The notes below the pieces were generated by a model. It had not been told where the DNA came from. It made no database searches and saw nothing but the letters and a program-made list of their open reading frames with translations. Made by a program: the position numbers and the translations under genes. 64,000 nt of DNA, from the NCBI RefSeq assembly GCF_005981925.1, contig NZ_VBVX01000002.1:1-64000 (forward strand), written 5' to 3'. Source of the DNA: Streptomyces albidochromogenes (GTDB taxonomy: Bacteria > Actinomycetota > Actinomycetes > Streptomycetales > Streptomycetaceae). Positions 17,582-25,553 of this stretch are shown here, in pieces (positions within the stretch are counted from its first letter, which is position 1; the number at the start of each line of letters is the position of its first letter).

Positions 17582-17815
17582 ATGATCAAGAAGGTCGTCG
17601 CTGCTGCGGCTGCCACTGGTGGTCTGGTTCTCGCCGGCGCGGGCATGGCCGTCGCCGACTCGGGTGCCCAGGGTGCTGCTGTCAAGTCCCCCGGCGTGAT
17701 TTCGGGCAACGTTGTCCAGGTCCCGATCCACGTGCCGGTGAACGCGTGCGGCAACACGGTCTCCGTGATCGGGCTGCTGAACCCCGCCTTCGGCAACACC
17801 TGCGTCAACAAGTGA
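17582..17815 (+). CDS. chpH: Short chaplin, ChpH-like
   Basis: A 77-residue secreted amyloid-forming surfactant protein that coats aerial hyphae and spores. A Sec signal peptide ends near AVA-D at residue 26, then one chaplin domain (about 36-76) with the hallmark [16 protein letters not shown] and GNTCVN segments and the Cys pair C56 and C74. It has no cell-wall anchor, so it is released and assembles at the air interface. AAGGAGG precedes the ATG. The next gene is a long chaplin, the same arrangement as chpH-chpC in S. coelicolor. Confidence 0.93.
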   Translation: MIKKVVAAAAATGGLVLAGAGMAVADSGAQGAAVKSPGVISGNVVQVPIHVPVNACGNTVSVIGLLNPAFGNTCVNK

Positions 17816-17850: not shown

Positions 17851-17887
17851 GCGGCCCCGGAGTGCGCTCCATGCACTCCGGGGCCGC
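17851..17887. terminator. Terminator after chpH
   Basis: Perfect 15-base arms (17851-17865 and 17873-17887) with a 7-base loop, 35 bases after the chpH stop. It separates chpH from chpC, which should therefore have its own promoter or depend on read-through. Confidence 0.75.
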
Positions 17888-17960
17888 TGGGCATTCGTCC
17901 CGCGGCGGCACCGACGTCCCGCGGGCATTCGGAGAAGGCACAAGGCAGAGGAACGTACCA

Positions 17961-18779
17961 ATGCGTCAGGTAGCCAGGAAAAGCCTGATCACCGTGGCGG
18001 CCGCGAGTGGCCTGCTGGCCATCGGCGGCGGCAACGCGCACGCCGGTTCGGGGGCCGGAGGCTCCACGTCGGATTCTCCCGGCGTCCTGTCCGGGAATTC
18101 CGTGCAGGCGCCCGTGCATGTCCCCGTCAATGTGTGCGGGAACACCGTCAACGTGGTCGGCGTGCTGAATCCCGCCATGGGCAACAGCTGCGTCAACGAC
18201 TCGCACGGCACGAAGCCCGGGAAGAACCACGGCGGCGGATCGACGGCCGGGGGGCGCGCGAGCGATTCTCCCGGAGTCGGCTCGGGCAACCACGTCCAGG
18301 CACCGGTCCACGTGCCGGTGAACGCCTGCGGCAACAACGTCACCGTCGTCGGCCTCGGCAACGCGGCCACCGGCAACGACTGCGCCAACGACTCCACCGG
18401 CCCCCACAACCCTCCGGGCAAGCCGGGGAAGCCGGTCGAGCCCGGTAAGCCGGGGGAACCGGGGAAGCCGGGGGAACCGGGCAAGCCGGGAGAGCCGGGT
18501 AAGCCCACCGAGCCCACCGAGCCCACGCACCCGGGCAAGCCCGGTGAGCCGGCCGAGCCCTCCGAGCCCGGCGTGCCCGCGGACCCTGACGAGCCGGGCA
18601 CCGGGGACGAGCCGGGCGGCCACGACGGCCCGGACACCCAGACCGTCACCCAGCCGCAGGGCACCGACGCCCTCGCGCAGACGGGCTCCGGCGCTCCGCT
18701 CGGCGTCGTGATCCCGGCCGGCGCGGGACTCCTGCTGGCCGGCGCGGTGCTGTACCGCCGGTCGCGTTCCGCGGCGTAA
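17961..18779 (+). CDS. chpC: Long chaplin with sortase anchor, ChpC-like
   Basis: A 272-residue cell-wall-anchored chaplin. The signal peptide ends near AHA at residue 28. Two chaplin domains follow, residues about 39-79 (C59, C77) and 103-143 (C123, C141). Then comes a Pro/Gly/Lys/Glu-rich linker (150-220) built of repeated GKPGEP units, and a sorting signal with LAQTG at 238-242, a hydrophobic helix and a RRSRS tail. This architecture (two domains plus LAxTG) is that of ChpA/B/C; position next to chpH favours ChpC. Sortase would link it to peptidoglycan, leaving the chaplin domains outside. Confidence 0.9.
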
Positions 18780-18851: not shown

Positions 18852-19040
18852 TCACCAGGTGGCGCGCACCTGTCGGATGATGCGCCTGCGCAGCCGCACG
18901 CGGCGGCTGCCGTCCCGGCGCAGACTCAGTCGGTCCAACTCCCAGTGTCCGTACTCGGCATGGTCGGTCAGCAGACGGGTCGCCTCCTTGCGGGAAACCC
19001 CGCGAGGGACGTACACGTCGACAAATTCGTATTCCGGCAT
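18852..19040 (-). CDS. DUF5703 family small protein
   Basis: A 62-residue conserved actinomycete protein beginning [20 protein letters not shown]. It is highly charged, with an arginine-rich C-terminus ([14 protein letters not shown]). It has no signal peptide or helix for a membrane. The sequence is nearly invariant among Streptomyces as I recall it, so it is a real gene despite its size. Function is unknown; the basic tail could bind nucleic acid, which is inference. It is divergent from the next gene with only 47 bases between starts. Confidence 0.8.
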
Positions 19041-19074
19041 CGCATCTATTGTGCGGGCAGAGCCCCGGTACGGA

Positions 19075-19080
19075 TAGCGT
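19075..19080 (+). promoter_or_regulatory. -10 element, likely leaderless downstream gene
   Basis: TAGCGT ends 7 bases before the ATG at 19088. It sits in a 47-base divergent gap, so the promoters of the two genes must overlap. Confidence 0.45.
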
Positions 19081-19087
19081 CTGCACT

Positions 19088-19783
19088 ATGTCTGATGCTG
19101 CGCAGCCCACCGCTGCCGAGGTACGCGCCGCCGCCGAGGCGGTCAAAGTCGCGCTCGACCGTCACCTCGAGGCGGTCGAGCGCCGCACCGGGGACGACGA
19201 CCCTGCCGTCTACGACGCGTTCAACGAGCTTGCCGCGGCCGCCGAGGCGTACGACGAGCGGCTCTACGACCGCTACGACGAGGTCACCCCCTTCGAGATT
19301 CCGGGATCCGACGACTCTCTGCCCCCTTACGCGGGGCCCGAGGAGCCCAACGCGCTGAGCGTCCTGATCCGCCGCGACTACGCGGTGGTCGAGACCCAGC
19401 GGCTGCTCGCCCAGGCACAGCGCATCGCCGATCTCGACCCGGACGTCGACGCCCCGGCGATCGAGGTCGAGCTGGACACCGACGTCGACGCCGAGGAGCG
19501 CGGCAACGCCGTGGCCATCGTCGGGGGCAGCGTCCACGCCGCTCTCGGCGTGCTCTTCGGCGAGTACGAACCCGATGAGATCGCTTCCCGGCACAAGGAG
19601 TTCGGTCTGGAGGAGGGCGACTCCACGCTGTGGGTGGCCGCCGTGGACGAACTGCCCGAACCGGGGGAGTGGCTCAACGCCCCGTTCGAGCAGGCCGACA
19701 CGCAGCGGGTGGTGTGCCGCTTCGACGTCAGCTCGGTCTTCGACGACGAGTTCGACGAGGCCGACGGCCCCGGCCACGGCTGA
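19088..19783 (+). CDS. Conserved acidic protein of unknown function
   Basis: A 231-residue, strongly acidic cytoplasmic protein (Asp/Glu-rich throughout, for example VELDTDVDAEERGN and FDDEFDEADG). It has a helical N-terminal half with AAAEAVK and AAEAYDERLYDRYDE segments and a C-terminal alpha/beta region containing STLWVAAVDELPEPGEWLNAPFE. I do not recognise a named domain. The ATG lacks a ribosome-binding site but has a -10 hexamer 7 bases away. Orthologues are expected in other Streptomyces because the gene sits in a conserved block. Confidence 0.7.
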   Translation: MSDAAQPTAAEVRAAAEAVKVALDRHLEAVERRTGDDDPAVYDAFNELAAAAEAYDERLYDRYDEVTPFEIPGSDDSLPPYAGPEEPNALSVLIRRDYAVVETQRLLAQAQRIADLDPDVDAPAIEVELDTDVDAEERGNAVAIVGGSVHAALGVLFGEYEPDEIASRHKEFGLEEGDSTLWVAAVDELPEPGEWLNAPFEQADTQRVVCRFDVSSVFDDEFDEADGPGHG

Positions 19784-19835: not shown

Positions 19836-22349
19836 TCAGGGCGCGCTCTGCCCGGCGTCCGCCTCCGTGGCCTCCTCCGCGCGGGGCTGGACCGGTGGCT
19901 GGAGCAGGGTGCGCAGGCGCGTCGTACGCGGCCGGTCCGGAATCTCGGCCACAGCGCGCGGCAGCGCCTGGTCGACGCCGTGCACCACCGACAGGTGGCG
20001 CTCCCCGCGGCTGAACGCCGTGTAGATCCACGGGCGGCTCAGGGCCGGGGCGGCGTCGCCCGGCAGGACGACCACGACCGCGGGCCACCGCATCCCGGTC
20101 GCCTGGTGCGCGGTGAGCGCCCAGGCGTGCCGCACCGCCGTCTCCACCCGCTCCTTGGGTACGACGACGGGCGTGCCCTCACAGTCGAGGTGCAGCCCCT
20201 CGGCGTCCGCCGACACCACCGTGGCGGGCAGCGTCCTGCCGGGGGCCGGGACGTACGCGACCCGGTCGCCGGGGTCGAAGCCGCCGAACCGGCCCGGGCC
20301 GGGATTGAGCCGCTGCTTGAGCGCCGCGTTCAGCGCGCGCGTGCCGGCGGAACCTCCGTGACCGGGGGTGATGACCTGGGTCTGGGCGGGGGACACCCCG
20401 AAGGCGCGCGGCACGGAGTCCGCGACCAGCTGGACGCTGCGGTGCACGGCCTCGCCCGCGTCGCGGACCGGGACGATCACCACCTCCTTGCCGGGCGCCT
20501 CGACCTGGTTCAGCTCCCCGATCCCGATGCCGGACACCAGCTCGCCGATCGGGCCGGGGTCCGGCGTACGCGACACGATCACCGGGCACGCGCGGGCGGC
20601 CAGCAGGTCCCCGAAGACCCGGCCCGCCCCCGCGGAGGGCAGCACGCCCGGATCGCCGCTGAGCACGAGCCGGGTGCCGTCCGCCAGCGACTCCACGAGC
20701 ACCGCGGCGCTCTCCACGTCCAGCTGCGGCGCGTCCAGCACGACCAGCAGGTCGAGGGCGAGCGCGCCCTCCGCGTCCCGGCCGGGCCCCTCGACGCCGG
20801 CGAGCAGACCGGAGACGGTCACCGACGCCGAGGCGTCGTCGAGGGCGGCGCCGAGACGGCGGCGGCCGTCCGCGCTGTGCGAGGCGGCGTACGCCCGCAG
20901 GCCGAGCCCCCGTGCCACGGCGACCAGGGCGGCCGGCTCGGCGCGGGCGGCCTCACCGCCGCTGTGGGCGACCAGGCCGTTCGACGCGACGGCGCGGATC
21001 AGCTCGGTGGCGGAGGGCGGGGCGGAGCCCGCGTCCCAGGCGCCGGACCCCTCGTCGGCGAACGTACTGGCCAGCCGGGCGAGGCCGTCGGCGAGGCTCT
21101 CCTCGGCGAGGGCGTACCGCTCCAGCCCCAGCAGCACCTCCACCGGCTCCTCGCCGTCGGCGGCCTCGTCCACCGCGCCGTCCTGGAAGACCAGCACGAC
21201 GCCCTCGGAGACGGCGTGCTCCACGGCCTCGTCCGGGTCGGGCACCCTGTGCTCCGCCAGTGCCTTGCGGACGGCGCCGGACTCCAGGACGGTGTGGCCC
21301 TGGACCGCCGCCCGCTCCAGGAGCCAGCCGACGAGCGCGGCGCCGCGGCGTTCGTCGCCGGGCCCGCACTCCGCGCCGAGCAGGGCGCGCGCGAATCCGT
21401 CGGCCTGCTCCGGCCGCACCCCCGGCACGGACAGCAGCTGCCACGGGTCGTCGCGCAGGACCTGTCCGGCCTGCTCCCCGAGTACGCCGGCGACGGACGC
21501 GGCCAGAGCCTCCGGCGCCCCGCCCTCGGCCAGCACGGCCCGTACCGATGCCACCGCCTCGGGTGCGGCGACGGCCGCCCGCTCCGCCGGCGGCGCCACC
21601 GCCGGACCCGCACCGGGGCCGGGCGGGGGAGCGGGCGCGACGCGGCGCGGCGGGGGCGCCGGCGCGAAGGGCGTGTCCCCTGCCCTGGCGCCGCTCTCCA
21701 CGGCCCGTACCGCGGCCAGCAGATCGGCCGCCTGGCCGCTGAGCTTGGCACCGGCCTCGACGGGCGCGGTCTTCTCGGCCTTGCGCCGCTCGATCCGCTC
21801 CCGCAACGCCCGCTGGGCGGCGAGCTCCGCCTCCGCCTCGGACAGCTGGGGCCCCGCCTCCGCCCCGGCGGCGGCCTGCCCGGACTCGGCGTCCGGACCG
21901 GCGCCGATCGCCTCCGCGCCCTCCTCGTCCTCCGCGCCCGCCACCGGACCCGAAGCCTGCGCCGCGCCGTCAGCCTCGCCGGACGGCGTCCCGGCGTCCG
22001 GGGCTGCGGCGTCGGCTCCGCCCGGCGCCCGCGCCTCCCCGGCCGGACGGTCGTCGGAGCTGTCGCCGCCGGCCGGCGCGGGGCCGGCGGCGGGCTCGGG
22101 GGTGTTCTCGTCGTGCTGCACGTCGGTACCTGCGTCCTCGGTCAAGTCCTTCGGGTGCTCCGCCGCGTCCGCGTCGCCCGGGGCGTCGGCCCCGGTGGCG
22201 GGCAGCGGCCCGGTGCGGGGCTTCTCGACGTCCCCGGCGGGGCCCTGCGCCGGGACCGCCGGCGTGGGGGCCGGCTCGGTGGCCGGCGCCGCGGCGTCGC
22301 GGTCGTCGGCCGGGGATCCGGGGGTTGCCCCCCGGGGAAGCGCGGTCAC
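19836..22349 (-). CDS. RecD2-like protein with degenerate ATPase motifs
   Basis: An 837-residue protein. Residues 1-260 are low-complexity Ala/Pro/Glu-rich. A helix-hairpin-helix region (about 262-330) is followed by a RecD2/UvrD-type helicase fold (about 440-800). RecD2 landmarks survive in shape: GDPGVLPSAGAG (motif III, about 565-576), VITPGHGGSAGTRALNAALKQRLNP (about 659-683), HAWALTAHQATG (motif V) and YTAFSRGERHL (motif VI). But the expected Walker A at about 456-470 reads SNGLVAHSGGEAARA without GKT, and Walker B reads LLVVLDA instead of a DE pair. It is probably a DNA- or protein-binding pseudo-helicase. The ATG overlaps the stop of the aldo/keto reductase gene (ATGA). Confidence 0.75.
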   Translation of the reverse strand: MTALPRGATPGSPADDRDAAAPATEPAPTPAVPAQGPAGDVEKPRTGPLPATGADAPGDADAAEHPKDLTEDAGTDVQHDENTPEPAAGPAPAGGDSSDDRPAGEARAPGGADAAAPDAGTPSGEADGAAQASGPVAGAEDEEGAEAIGAGPDAESGQAAAGAEAGPQLSEAEAELAAQRALRERIERRKAEKTAPVEAGAKLSGQAADLLAAVRAVESGARAGDTPFAPAPPPRRVAPAPPPGPGAGPAVAPPAERAAVAAPEAVASVRAVLAEGGAPEALAASVAGVLGEQAGQVLRDDPWQLLSVPGVRPEQADGFARALLGAECGPGDERRGAALVGWLLERAAVQGHTVLESGAVRKALAEHRVPDPDEAVEHAVSEGVVLVFQDGAVDEAADGEEPVEVLLGLERYALAEESLADGLARLASTFADEGSGAWDAGSAPPSATELIRAVASNGLVAHSGGEAARAEPAALVAVARGLGLRAYAASHSADGRRRLGAALDDASASVTVSGLLAGVEGPGRDAEGALALDLLVVLDAPQLDVESAAVLVESLADGTRLVLSGDPGVLPSAGAGRVFGDLLAARACPVIVSRTPDPGPIGELVSGIGIGELNQVEAPGKEVVIVPVRDAGEAVHRSVQLVADSVPRAFGVSPAQTQVITPGHGGSAGTRALNAALKQRLNPGPGRFGGFDPGDRVAYVPAPGRTLPATVVSADAEGLHLDCEGTPVVVPKERVETAVRHAWALTAHQATGMRWPAVVVVLPGDAAPALSRPWIYTAFSRGERHLSVVHGVDQALPRAVAEIPDRPRTTRLRTLLQPPVQPRAEEATEADAGQSAP

Positions 22350-23329
22350 AGCGTGCTCCAGTCCTGGTCGGGATAGCGGTGCACGGGCGCCGACACGTCG
22401 TCGAGCGCCCGGCGGATCTCGTCTGGAAGACTAAGCGCCTCCACTGACAACGCCGCCGCGAGCTGCTGCGCGTTGCGCGCCCCCACGATCGGGGCGACCA
22501 CGCCCGGCCGGTCGCGGACCCACGCGAGGGCCACCTGCAACGGGGTCGTGGCGAGCCCGTCGGCGGCCGTCGCGACCGCGTCCACGATGCGGCCCGACGC
22601 CTCGTCGAGGTACGGCGCGACGAACCCGGCCAGGTGCTGCGACCCGCCGCGCGAGTCCGGCGGGACCGCGCGCCGGTACTTGCCCGTCAGGACGCCCCGG
22701 CCGAGCGGCGACGAGGGCAGCAGTCCCACGCCCAGGTCGAGCGCGGCGGGCAGCACCTCCCGTTCCACACCGCGCTGGAGCAGGGAGTACTCCATCTGGG
22801 TACTGGCCAGCCGGGTGCGTACCCCGGGCGCCGCGAGCTGCCAGGTCGCGGCCTTCGCCAGCTGCCAGCCGGAGAAGTTGGACACCCCGGCGTACCGCGC
22901 CCGTCCGCTGGCCACCGCCAGGTCGAGCGCCTGGAGGGTCTCGTCCAGCGGTGTCGCCGCGTCGAAGGCGTGCACCTGCCACACGTCCACGTGGTCCGTG
23001 CCGAGCCGCTCCAGCGACGCGTCGAGCGCCGCCAGCAGGTGGCCGCGCGACCCGTCGAAGCGCCGGTCCGGATCGGGCACGCTGCCCGCCTTCGTGGCGA
23101 TGACCAGGTCCCGCCGCGGCACGAGCCGCTCCATGAGCTGCCCGAGCAGGTACTCCGCCTCCCCGTCGCCGTACACGTCCGCCGTGTCGACGAGCGTGCC
23201 GCCCGCGTCCCAGAAGGTCTTCAGGACGTCGGCGGCGTCGTGCTCGTCGGTGTCCCGGCCCCAGGTGAGGGTGCCGAGCCCGATCCTCGATACGCGCAGG
23301 CCCGTGCGGCCGAGATGCCTCTGCTCCAT
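22346..23329 (-). CDS. Aldo/keto reductase
   Basis: A 327-residue NADPH-dependent (beta/alpha)8 oxidoreductase. The catalytic tetrad is D48, Y53, K80 and H120 (LVDTADVYG, ATKAG, WQVHAFD). The C-terminal cofactor segment VAPIVGARNAQQL is present. ATG 23329 starts the conserved MEQRHLGRTGLRVSRIGLGT; the longer upstream reading is not family-like. TAATCT ends 7 bases before this ATG, suggesting leaderless expression. It is translationally coupled to the RecD2-like gene. Substrate unknown. Confidence 0.88.
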   Translation of the reverse strand: MEQRHLGRTGLRVSRIGLGTLTWGRDTDEHDAADVLKTFWDAGGTLVDTADVYGDGEAEYLLGQLMERLVPRRDLVIATKAGSVPDPDRRFDGSRGHLLAALDASLERLGTDHVDVWQVHAFDAATPLDETLQALDLAVASGRARYAGVSNFSGWQLAKAATWQLAAPGVRTRLASTQMEYSLLQRGVEREVLPAALDLGVGLLPSSPLGRGVLTGKYRRAVPPDSRGGSQHLAGFVAPYLDEASGRIVDAVATAADGLATTPLQVALAWVRDRPGVVAPIVGARNAQQLAAALSVEALSLPDEIRRALDDVSAPVHRYPDQDWSTL

Positions 23330-23336
23330 GGCCGCG

Positions 23337-23342
23337 AGATTA
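23337..23342 (-). promoter_or_regulatory. -10 element, likely leaderless aldo/keto reductase
   Basis: TAATCT on the minus strand, 7 bases before the ATG at 23329, with no ribosome-binding site. It supports the shorter start. Confidence 0.5.
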
Positions 23343-23448
23343 CTGGCCGCGGGCCCGCGGGCAGGAGACCTGTGGACAAGTCCGGTGGACGCGTGCGCCC
23401 CCTGACGGATCGCCGCCCCGCGCGCTAGAGTCCCCGGCAACAGGGACG

Positions 23449-24764: not shown

Positions 24765-25553
24765 ATGCTGTCGGCCCGAAGTCTCTTCCAGGAAATCCTC
24801 GACGACGACGACTCCTTCCAGCTCTTCTGCTCCATAGCCGCGAGCGGCGAGACCCAGGGCGGCTGGGAGAACGGCCGCATCGCGGCCCTCGTGCCCGACG
24901 GCATGAGACACCTCGCCCCCAAGATCACCCGGCACGGCGCGGACGAGGACAAGCACGGCCGGCTGTTCAACGCCCTGCTCAAGAAGCGGGGGCTCGACCC
25001 GGTCCCCGTCCCGCCCGGGACCGACTACACGATGCTGCTCGAACAGCGCGGCATCGGCCTCGCCCACGACAAGCTCCGCCGCGACGAGCCGCTGACCGAG
25101 GAGGACATCCTCGTCTACCTCTCGCACAGCCGGGTGACCGAGCAGCGGGCGGCCGACCAGATGGACATGCTGGTCAAGTACTTCGGCGACCACCCCGAGG
25201 TGGGCCGGCCGATCAGGATGATCTGCGACGACGAGGAGAACCACCTCGCGTATTGCCACGAGGAGCTGCTCCGGCTGGCCCGCGCCGGCCACGGTCGGAC
25301 CATCCTGCGCGTCCTGCGCGAGTGCGCCCTGGAGGAGTGCCGCGTCTACCGCGACGTCAGCCTCGCCGTCATGGCGCACATGGGGCGCATCCTCAAGTGG
25401 CCGAAGCCCAAGTCCGCCGCGCTCGCCGCGGGCATCCACGCCATGTACGCCTACGAGCGCCTCGGCGGCTGGCGGCGCATGGTGAGCCTGACGACGCCCG
25501 AACGGCGCGACGCGCTGGGAGGCCCGGCCACGTCGGCCGTCGGAGTCGTCTGA
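24765..25553 (+). CDS. Ferritin-like domain protein
   Basis: A 262-residue, mostly helical protein with paired carboxylate/histidine motifs typical of di-iron four-helix bundles: ITRHGADEDKHGRLF (E/D-x-x-H near residue 55-65), a second helix with VTEQRAADQM, and MICDDEENHLAYCHEELL (E-x-x-H near 150-160). It may bind iron or act as an oxygenase. GGAGG lies 9 bases before the ATG. A candidate -35 box, TTGACT, is at 24713-24718. The last codons are included in a tandem duplication described separately. The exact function is not known. Confidence 0.8.
   Translation: MLSARSLFQEILDDDDSFQLFCSIAASGETQGGWENGRIAALVPDGMRHLAPKITRHGADEDKHGRLFNALLKKRGLDPVPVPPGTDYTMLLEQRGIGLAHDKLRRDEPLTEEDILVYLSHSRVTEQRAADQMDMLVKYFGDHPEVGRPIRMICDDEENHLAYCHEELLRLARAGHGRTILRVLRECALEECRVYRDVSLAVMAHMGRILKWPKPKSAALAAGIHAMYAYERLGGWRRMVSLTTPERRDALGGPATSAVGVV

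Follow-up and report, generated by a model that had tools for sequence, protein, structure and literature searches.

The window (the whole stretch of 64,000 nucleotides of Streptomyces albidochromogenes DNA that was analysed) carries a pseudohelicase derived from RecD2, that is, a protein of helicase descent that has lost motifs I and II and has been kept under selection. Its identity as a dead, conserved paralogue is well founded, and we infer, with rather better than even confidence, that it acts as an ATP-independent scaffold that would bind both DNA and a partner protein. Pseudohelicases are already known as a kind; none described for RecD2 was found among the titles and abstracts listed by our searches of an open-licence library, where neither this protein nor SCO1670-1673, the likely neighbourhood in S. 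coelicolor, turned up. A dead helicase kept universally alongside a functional RecD2 hints at an uncharacterised component of Streptomyces DNA maintenance.

An intact gene with the fold of RecD2

The frame listed in Table 1 is the intact one of 837 codons that a sequence-only reading of this DNA had put forward, with the same coordinates and strand. That reading had proposed structure prediction against Deinococcus RecD2 as a check, and a RecD2 fold is indeed what was found. An AlphaFold2 model of residues 260-837, computed with 54 orthologues, has a pLDDT of 92.5 and a pTM of 0.90, and the three top matches of this core model in the PDB, as found by Foldseek, are all D. radiodurans RecD2 (E 5.8e-33 to 2.3e-30). 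VIA-align superposes it on 3e1s with a Z of 40.7 and an rmsd of 2.7 over 484 aligned residues, and after RecD2 come TraI and the RecD of RecBCD (Z ~25). The model is closer to 3e1s, the entry title of which mentions neither DNA nor nucleotide, than to the ADPNP-bound 3gpl (rmsd 4.6). Helix-hairpin-helix (HHH), 1A, 2A and SH3 parts are all present, the last of these (residues 690-736) being what we take, from the D. radiodurans protein, to be the SH3-like (2B) domain, and the RecD2 fold predicted for residues 260-837 is not in doubt.

By sequence too the best PDB match is 3e1s (E 1.9e-13). Two Pfam families match above their cut-offs, HHH_RecD2 (Table 1) and UvrD_C_2 (E 3.5e-9, residues 741-789), and a third, AAA_30 (residues 475-587), scores just under its own. 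The first, which is matched in 55/55 members of alignment A2, bears out the upstream HHH region that had been claimed earlier. Against TIGR01448, the RecD2 equivalog profile, the protein scores 116.6 bits (94.3 bits for its best separate stretch), the cut-off being 500.

Table 1. Features of the pseudohelicase gene and its coupled neighbour; positions are those of the window.
Feature	Position	Strand	Details
RecD2-like pseudohelicase gene	19836..22349	-	837 codons (837 aa); GTG start codon at 22349, last base of stop codon at 19836
Aldo/keto reductase gene	22346..23440	-	upstream, overlaps pseudohelicase by GTGA; conserved neighbour; PF00248 E 2.4e-62
Conserved N-terminal island	21684..21857	-	about residues 165-222, LSEAEAELAAQR..RKAEK..KLSGQAADLLAAVRAVESG; two predicted helices; candidate docking site
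RecD2-type helix-hairpin-helix domain	21288..21554	-	residues 266-354; PF14490 E 1.3e-9
Rewritten Walker A / motif I	20937..20960	-	residues 464-471, GGEAARAE vs GGPGCGKS
Rewritten Walker B / motif II	20727..20747	-	residues 535-541, VVLDAPQ vs VVVDEAS
Motif III, retained	20622..20657	-	residues 565-576, GDPGVLPSAGAG; D566 in 128/128 rows
SH3-like (2B) insertion between domain 2A halves	20142..20282	-	residues 690-736; alignment with RecD2, strands in model
Altered motif V	20085..20129	-	residues 741-755, HAWALTAHQATGMRW vs HGWA.TVHRAQGSEW
Motif VI, arginine retained	20007..20024	-	residues 776-781, YTAFSR; R781 in 124/128 rows

An ATPase site rewritten and held

The motifs were followed in an alignment of 128 rows (the window and 127 loci, 11 loci having been set aside), with the RecD2 of the same genome as the reference for GGPGCGKS and VVVDEAS. 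The absence of GKT from Walker A, as claimed earlier, holds at residues 464-471, and it survives a search for a Walker A elsewhere, GxxxxGK[ST] being absent from the whole pseudohelicase. It is also shared by orthologues across the order, with 0/128 rows having GxxxxGK[ST]: the column of the Walker lysine is Ala in 114/128 rows and never Lys, that of the metal-binding Asp is Leu in 113/128 and never Asp, and that of the catalytic Glu is Asp in 125/128 and Glu in a single one. The loss in Walker B is thus as real as had been proposed, but the earlier description of DA instead of DE was one register off, since it is Leu538-Asp539 that replaces Asp-Glu, the metal Asp being lost and the catalytic Glu turned into Asp. 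Motif IV has lost its Gln and kept its arginine (R594, in 123/128 rows), and the QGSE of motif V in RecD2 has become TGMR. Motif III is retained, as is the arginine of motif VI, and the GDPGVLPSAGAG, TPGHGGSAGTRALN and YTAFSRG stretches reported earlier are all present. Two rows, L021 and L022, keep a lysine in a shifted and degenerate loop, APGIAKT, which implies that the lysine itself would have gone more than once.

The replaced residues are fixed in Streptomyces. Within this genus, where mean conservation is 0.802 (123 rows, 57 clusters), the former P-loop reaches 0.908, motif II 0.936 and motif III 0.890; the value of the P-loop is above average but unexceptional, 120/566 windows of the alignment being as high, and motif Ia, at 0.649, is among the least conserved stretches. 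When intact and dead members are compared, columns fixed to different residues make up 8/22 in motif I and 31/556 elsewhere (p 3.3e-5), and 4/18 in motif II (p 0.027), with region borders that were set by the analyst. Judged by these columns, the former ATPase site did not simply drift after its change but has been maintained in the new form.

Substitution rates were compared in the 67 genomes that hold all seven genes considered, by simple Nei-Gojobori counts on pairs that are not independent. The core of the pseudohelicase has a median dN/dS of 0.290 (1400 pairs, core dS 0.1-0.7), next to 0.290 for CorA, 0.291 and 0.221 for two proteins of unknown function (262 and 244 aa), 0.156 for the reductase, 0.148 for the luciferase-like gene and 0.147 for the peptidase. 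By these counts, the gene is under purifying selection and is not decaying.

A paralogue with intact relatives

The genome also encodes a complete RecD2 (847.7 bits against TIGR01448) with GGPGCGKS and DEAS, which makes the pseudohelicase a paralogue and led us to reject the idea that it might be the only RecD2 of the genome. The sequence-only description of a RecD2-like helicase that has lost its ATPase motifs was therefore right about the loss, but concerns a separate paralogue and leaves the RecD2 of the genome intact. In trees, the pseudohelicase subfamily is distinct from RecD2, with long branches between the two (SH-aLRT 100).

A profile of 12 members finds a match at E<=1e-60 in 196/197 genomes of the Streptomyces order, the one studied here included; the sole genome without a match (G388) is an assembly in 910 contigs. 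A draw across the phylum gave only 9/296 genomes at the same level, all of one genus, which suggested a subfamily confined to this order. This notion was rejected when a draw across the class found members elsewhere, the phylum draw having probably held few of the relevant families. The class draw gave 95/246 genomes at E<=1e-20, a level at which ordinary RecD2 is caught as well; among the class-draw matches listed, those outside the order that reach 1e-60 or better come from 49 genomes. The gene was inspected in 37 of the genomes outside the order. GGPGTGKS is intact in 24/37 (families f83, f76, f79, f81, f85, f87 and f90) and lacking in 10 genomes of f86 and in G500 (f77); in G691 (f86) the gene lies in two frames and has no Walker A, and in G638 the Walker A stretch consists of N and is unreadable. 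Intact members also keep DE[AST]S, GDPAQLPS, RQ, RAQGSEW and YTA.TRA. These intact-motif members of the subfamily outside the order, several of them at the same locus, are new here. A search of plasmids by protein returned 113 records, all of them distant RecD helicases at <60% identity, none of which covers 80% of the query.

In a tree computed without the motif I and II columns, the dead forms all fall together as a single clade nested among the intact members (SH-aLRT 99), a grouping with the same value after removal of eight awkward rows. However, AU tests do not reject topologies in which the intact f83-type members join just one of the dead groups (p 0.183 and 0.184) and the dead branches are long, so we make no claim of a single loss: the grouping of the dead forms may reflect one loss or several.

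Co-occurrence with RecD2, scored with TIGR01448 in 38 genomes, follows a pattern. Full RecD2 is found in 21/38 genomes (5/5 of the order, 8/8 of f86 and 8/8 of f87); in the other 17 (f83 and similar) nothing exceeds the cut-off, and the best score goes to the subfamily member, with 325-437 bits except in G500 (90 bits). In other words, a dead motor goes with the presence of an ordinary RecD2 (the order and f86) and an intact one with a subfamily member that is alone, while f87 carries both intact. The exception is G500, which has a dead form, no RecD2 over the cut-off and an assembly in 970 contigs. This pattern would fit, without proving it, a loss of the motor made possible by redundancy with RecD2.

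Three observations concern individual lineages. The f87 loci L175-L180, L190, L196 and L197 hold an intact second RecD2-like helicase, which may be a working one, full RecD2 being also present in the 8 f87 genomes tested. The member at the G500 locus (L189) is dead-looking and on a long branch in that fragmented assembly. Finally, four genomes of family f3 of the same order (G014, G016, G017 and G020) have two RecD2 over the cut-off (651-852 bits) in addition to the dead paralogue.

A conserved locus

The earlier claim of translational coupling to an aldo/keto reductase, whose solved relatives include DepB (8hwn) and others, is well supported by the GTGA in which the reductase stop and the helicase start overlap: it is present in 115/125 loci where both genes could be placed, a set that includes the window itself 3 times. 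Among the named Streptomyces loci with full flanks (n=66), the adjoining reductase, a luciferase-like gene, an M20 peptidase gene and the 244-aa unknown are present in 66/66, DUF5703 and CorA in 65/66 each, and a small chaplin in 64/66. The reductase also adjoins the dead f86 genes L161-L169 (9/9) and the intact genes L170-L174 (5/5), and the latter loci have the luciferase-like gene in 5/5, the M20 peptidase in 4/5 and DUF5703 in 4/5. Given these common neighbours, dead and intact forms, those of f87 excepted, seem to be orthologues that share a single locus by inheritance. The fetched flanks of the intact f87 genes L175-L180 contain no reductase match.

Several of these neighbours deserve a mention of their own. 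The 244-aa protein (19049-19783, plus strand) matches no Pfam family; its gene converges on that of the pseudohelicase in 66/66 loci and has a dN/dS of 0.22, and the 262-aa protein (24765-25553, plus strand), also without a Pfam match, is kept in 64/66. The DUF5703 protein (18852-19040, minus strand) has 62 aa and also adjoins several intact-motif members of the subfamily. Just past it, on the far side of the pseudohelicase, lie two chaplin genes (17582-17815 and 17862-18779, both on the plus strand; ChpA-C E 6.6e-29 and 1.4e-48), of which the short one is that kept in 64/66 loci.

An N-terminal arm with a conserved island

Up to about residue 260 the protein is an arm rich in Ala, Gly, Glu, Arg and Pro, whose length varies from 135 to 571 residues among relatives (counted from the upstream stop and including 15 core residues). 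Within it lies an island with the consensus LSEAEAELAAQR..RERIE.RKAEK..P...G.KLSG.AADLLAAVRAVESG, the core of which, AAV[RK]AVE, is found in 114/119 N-terminal regions; the five without it are L016 and L018, which belong to other families of the order, and L045, L061 and L063. A model that includes the island (60 rows) predicts helices at residues 171-193 and 205-219, with a pLDDT of about 70-90 in this block, but is otherwise poor (pLDDT 72.7 and pTM 0.62, with much of domain 2A <50). An island profile found nothing below E 1 among members outside the order, and no second copy in its own genome (next match E 2.15). Where a disordered arm contains a conserved stretch of this kind, that stretch is often a docking site, and this two-helix island, as predicted, looks like a candidate for one.

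What a dead helicase could do

That ATP hydrolysis has been lost and DNA binding kept is our reading of the motifs. The structural or regulatory DNA role proposed from the sequence is plausible. In the scaffold that we favour, a RecD2 paralogue without ATP hydrolysis would have been retained for its shape. It would hold single-stranded or forked DNA through its HHH, the cleft of its RecA folds and its SH3 domain, with no ATP cycle, while a partner would dock on the conserved helices of the disordered N-terminal arm; the pseudohelicase could thereby position or restrain another DNA-repair or replication protein, in a working mode like that of D. radiodurans PriA, and the intact RecD2 of the genome would meanwhile do the unwinding. 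Counting against this scaffold, the constant neighbour is a metabolic reductase, and the replacement in the P-loop is conserved to an unexceptional degree. Moreover, motif Ia, which contacts DNA in SF1 helicases, is poorly conserved here and motif V has changed, so that the groove for DNA may no longer be preserved. A bolder version, which we regard as distinctly improbable, is that the RecD2 duplicate has become a clamp on forked or single-stranded DNA, its two motor domains frozen in one state by a putative pairing of the acidic E466 and E471 of the former P-loop with R594 and R781 that would replace ATP, its N-terminal helices tethering an active repair or replication enzyme. The comparison of the core model with 3e1s and 3gpl given above bears on such a closed state as a weak result. 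If true, it would be a processivity or restraint factor made from a helicase and specific to the Streptomyces order.

The scaffold has to be weighed against other explanations. One, which we consider unlikely, is that the dead fold is a recognition module that senses some feature of DNA and passes a signal to an active helicase with which it forms a complex, perhaps the cell's own RecD2. The model would be AddB, in which the Chi recognition locus lies within the helicase-like region (PMC4824097), and the idea would fit the docking-like island and the intact RecD2 that lies beside the dead form in 13/13 genomes tested (5 of the order and 8 of f86). However, neither a nuclease domain nor a RecB- or AddA-like gene was found by Pfam in the protein or its ten nearest predicted neighbours, the motif Ia of such a module is not conserved, and the dead form of G500 has no RecD2 over the cut-off to signal to. 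A shade less likely is that the DNA role is gone altogether and that the fold now acts on the co-translated reductase, as its scaffold or regulator, as the GTGA overlap and the presence of the reductase at both dead f86 and intact loci might suggest. Against this, the pairing is already found with an intact motor, it is not obligatory since the intact f87 genes have no reductase match in their fetched flanks, and the HHH domain is matched in every member of alignment A2.

That the protein is still an ATPase, or at least binds ATP, through a non-canonical loop seems very unlikely to us. Both arginine-finger positions (R594 and R781) are mostly kept and two rows have the lysine of APGIAKT, but none of the 128 rows has K in the Lys column or D in that of the metal Asp, acidic residues occupy the would-be phosphate sites and, in E. 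coli PriA, changing the Lys to Arg is by itself enough to abolish ATPase activity (PMC4504706). Finally, a decaying gene or a chance open frame in GC-rich DNA can be dismissed as barely credible: long antisense frames do exist here (933 aa on the plus strand) and the frame is broken in three loci (L020, L102 and L169, by assembly error or true loss), but the gene is kept in nearly all genomes of the order with a median dN/dS of 0.29, its RecD2 fold is predicted with confidence and its codon-position GC on the minus strand is 0.85/0.59/0.95.

Comparison with known systems

AddB and RecC resemble the pseudohelicase in their use of a helicase fold without a working motor. Their domains sit in helicase-nuclease complexes and are not known to derive from RecD2, and the marks of systems of this type, a nuclease or inactivated-nuclease domain and a helicase-nuclease gene nearby, are absent from the Pfam matches of the pseudohelicase and its ten nearest predicted neighbours. 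The two Streptomyces covered by one survey (PMC1193525) have neither RecBC nor much of the presynaptic recombination machinery that is known. The PriA of D. radiodurans, the nearest case that has been tested, is likewise a conserved bacterial DNA helicase with degenerate motifs I and II; it is without ATPase and unwinding activity but still binds DNA as well as the replicative helicase DnaB (PMC4504706). The difference is that PriA is degenerate throughout its phylum, whereas the pseudohelicase is a paralogue beside an intact RecD2.

RecD2 itself (SF1B, TIGR01448; D. radiodurans 3e1s, 3gp8 and 3gpl), which has been placed at forks with SsbA and RecA (PMC12143592), has in common with the pseudohelicase the overall fold, HHH, RecA-like 1A and 2A, SH3-like 2B and motif III. 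Unlike it, the pseudohelicase has neither the Walker A Lys nor the Walker B Asp-Glu, its motifs IV and V are altered, it falls far below the equivalog cut-off, and it leaves the first part of the RecD2 profile, up to about position 135, without a match, the variable arm with its conserved island standing there instead. Closest of all are the intact members of the same subfamily in the seven families named above, which share the signatures QLVTDSIPR, HGWA and RHLS.VH and, in several cases, the same neighbours (reductase, luciferase-like gene, M20 peptidase and DUF5703), but differ in that GGPGTGKS, DE[AST]S, RQA, RAQGSEW and TRA are intact and that there is no N-terminal island. With intact and dead members at the same locus in related lineages, nature offers a before-and-after pair, which should be useful for studying how a motor protein changes into a scaffold.
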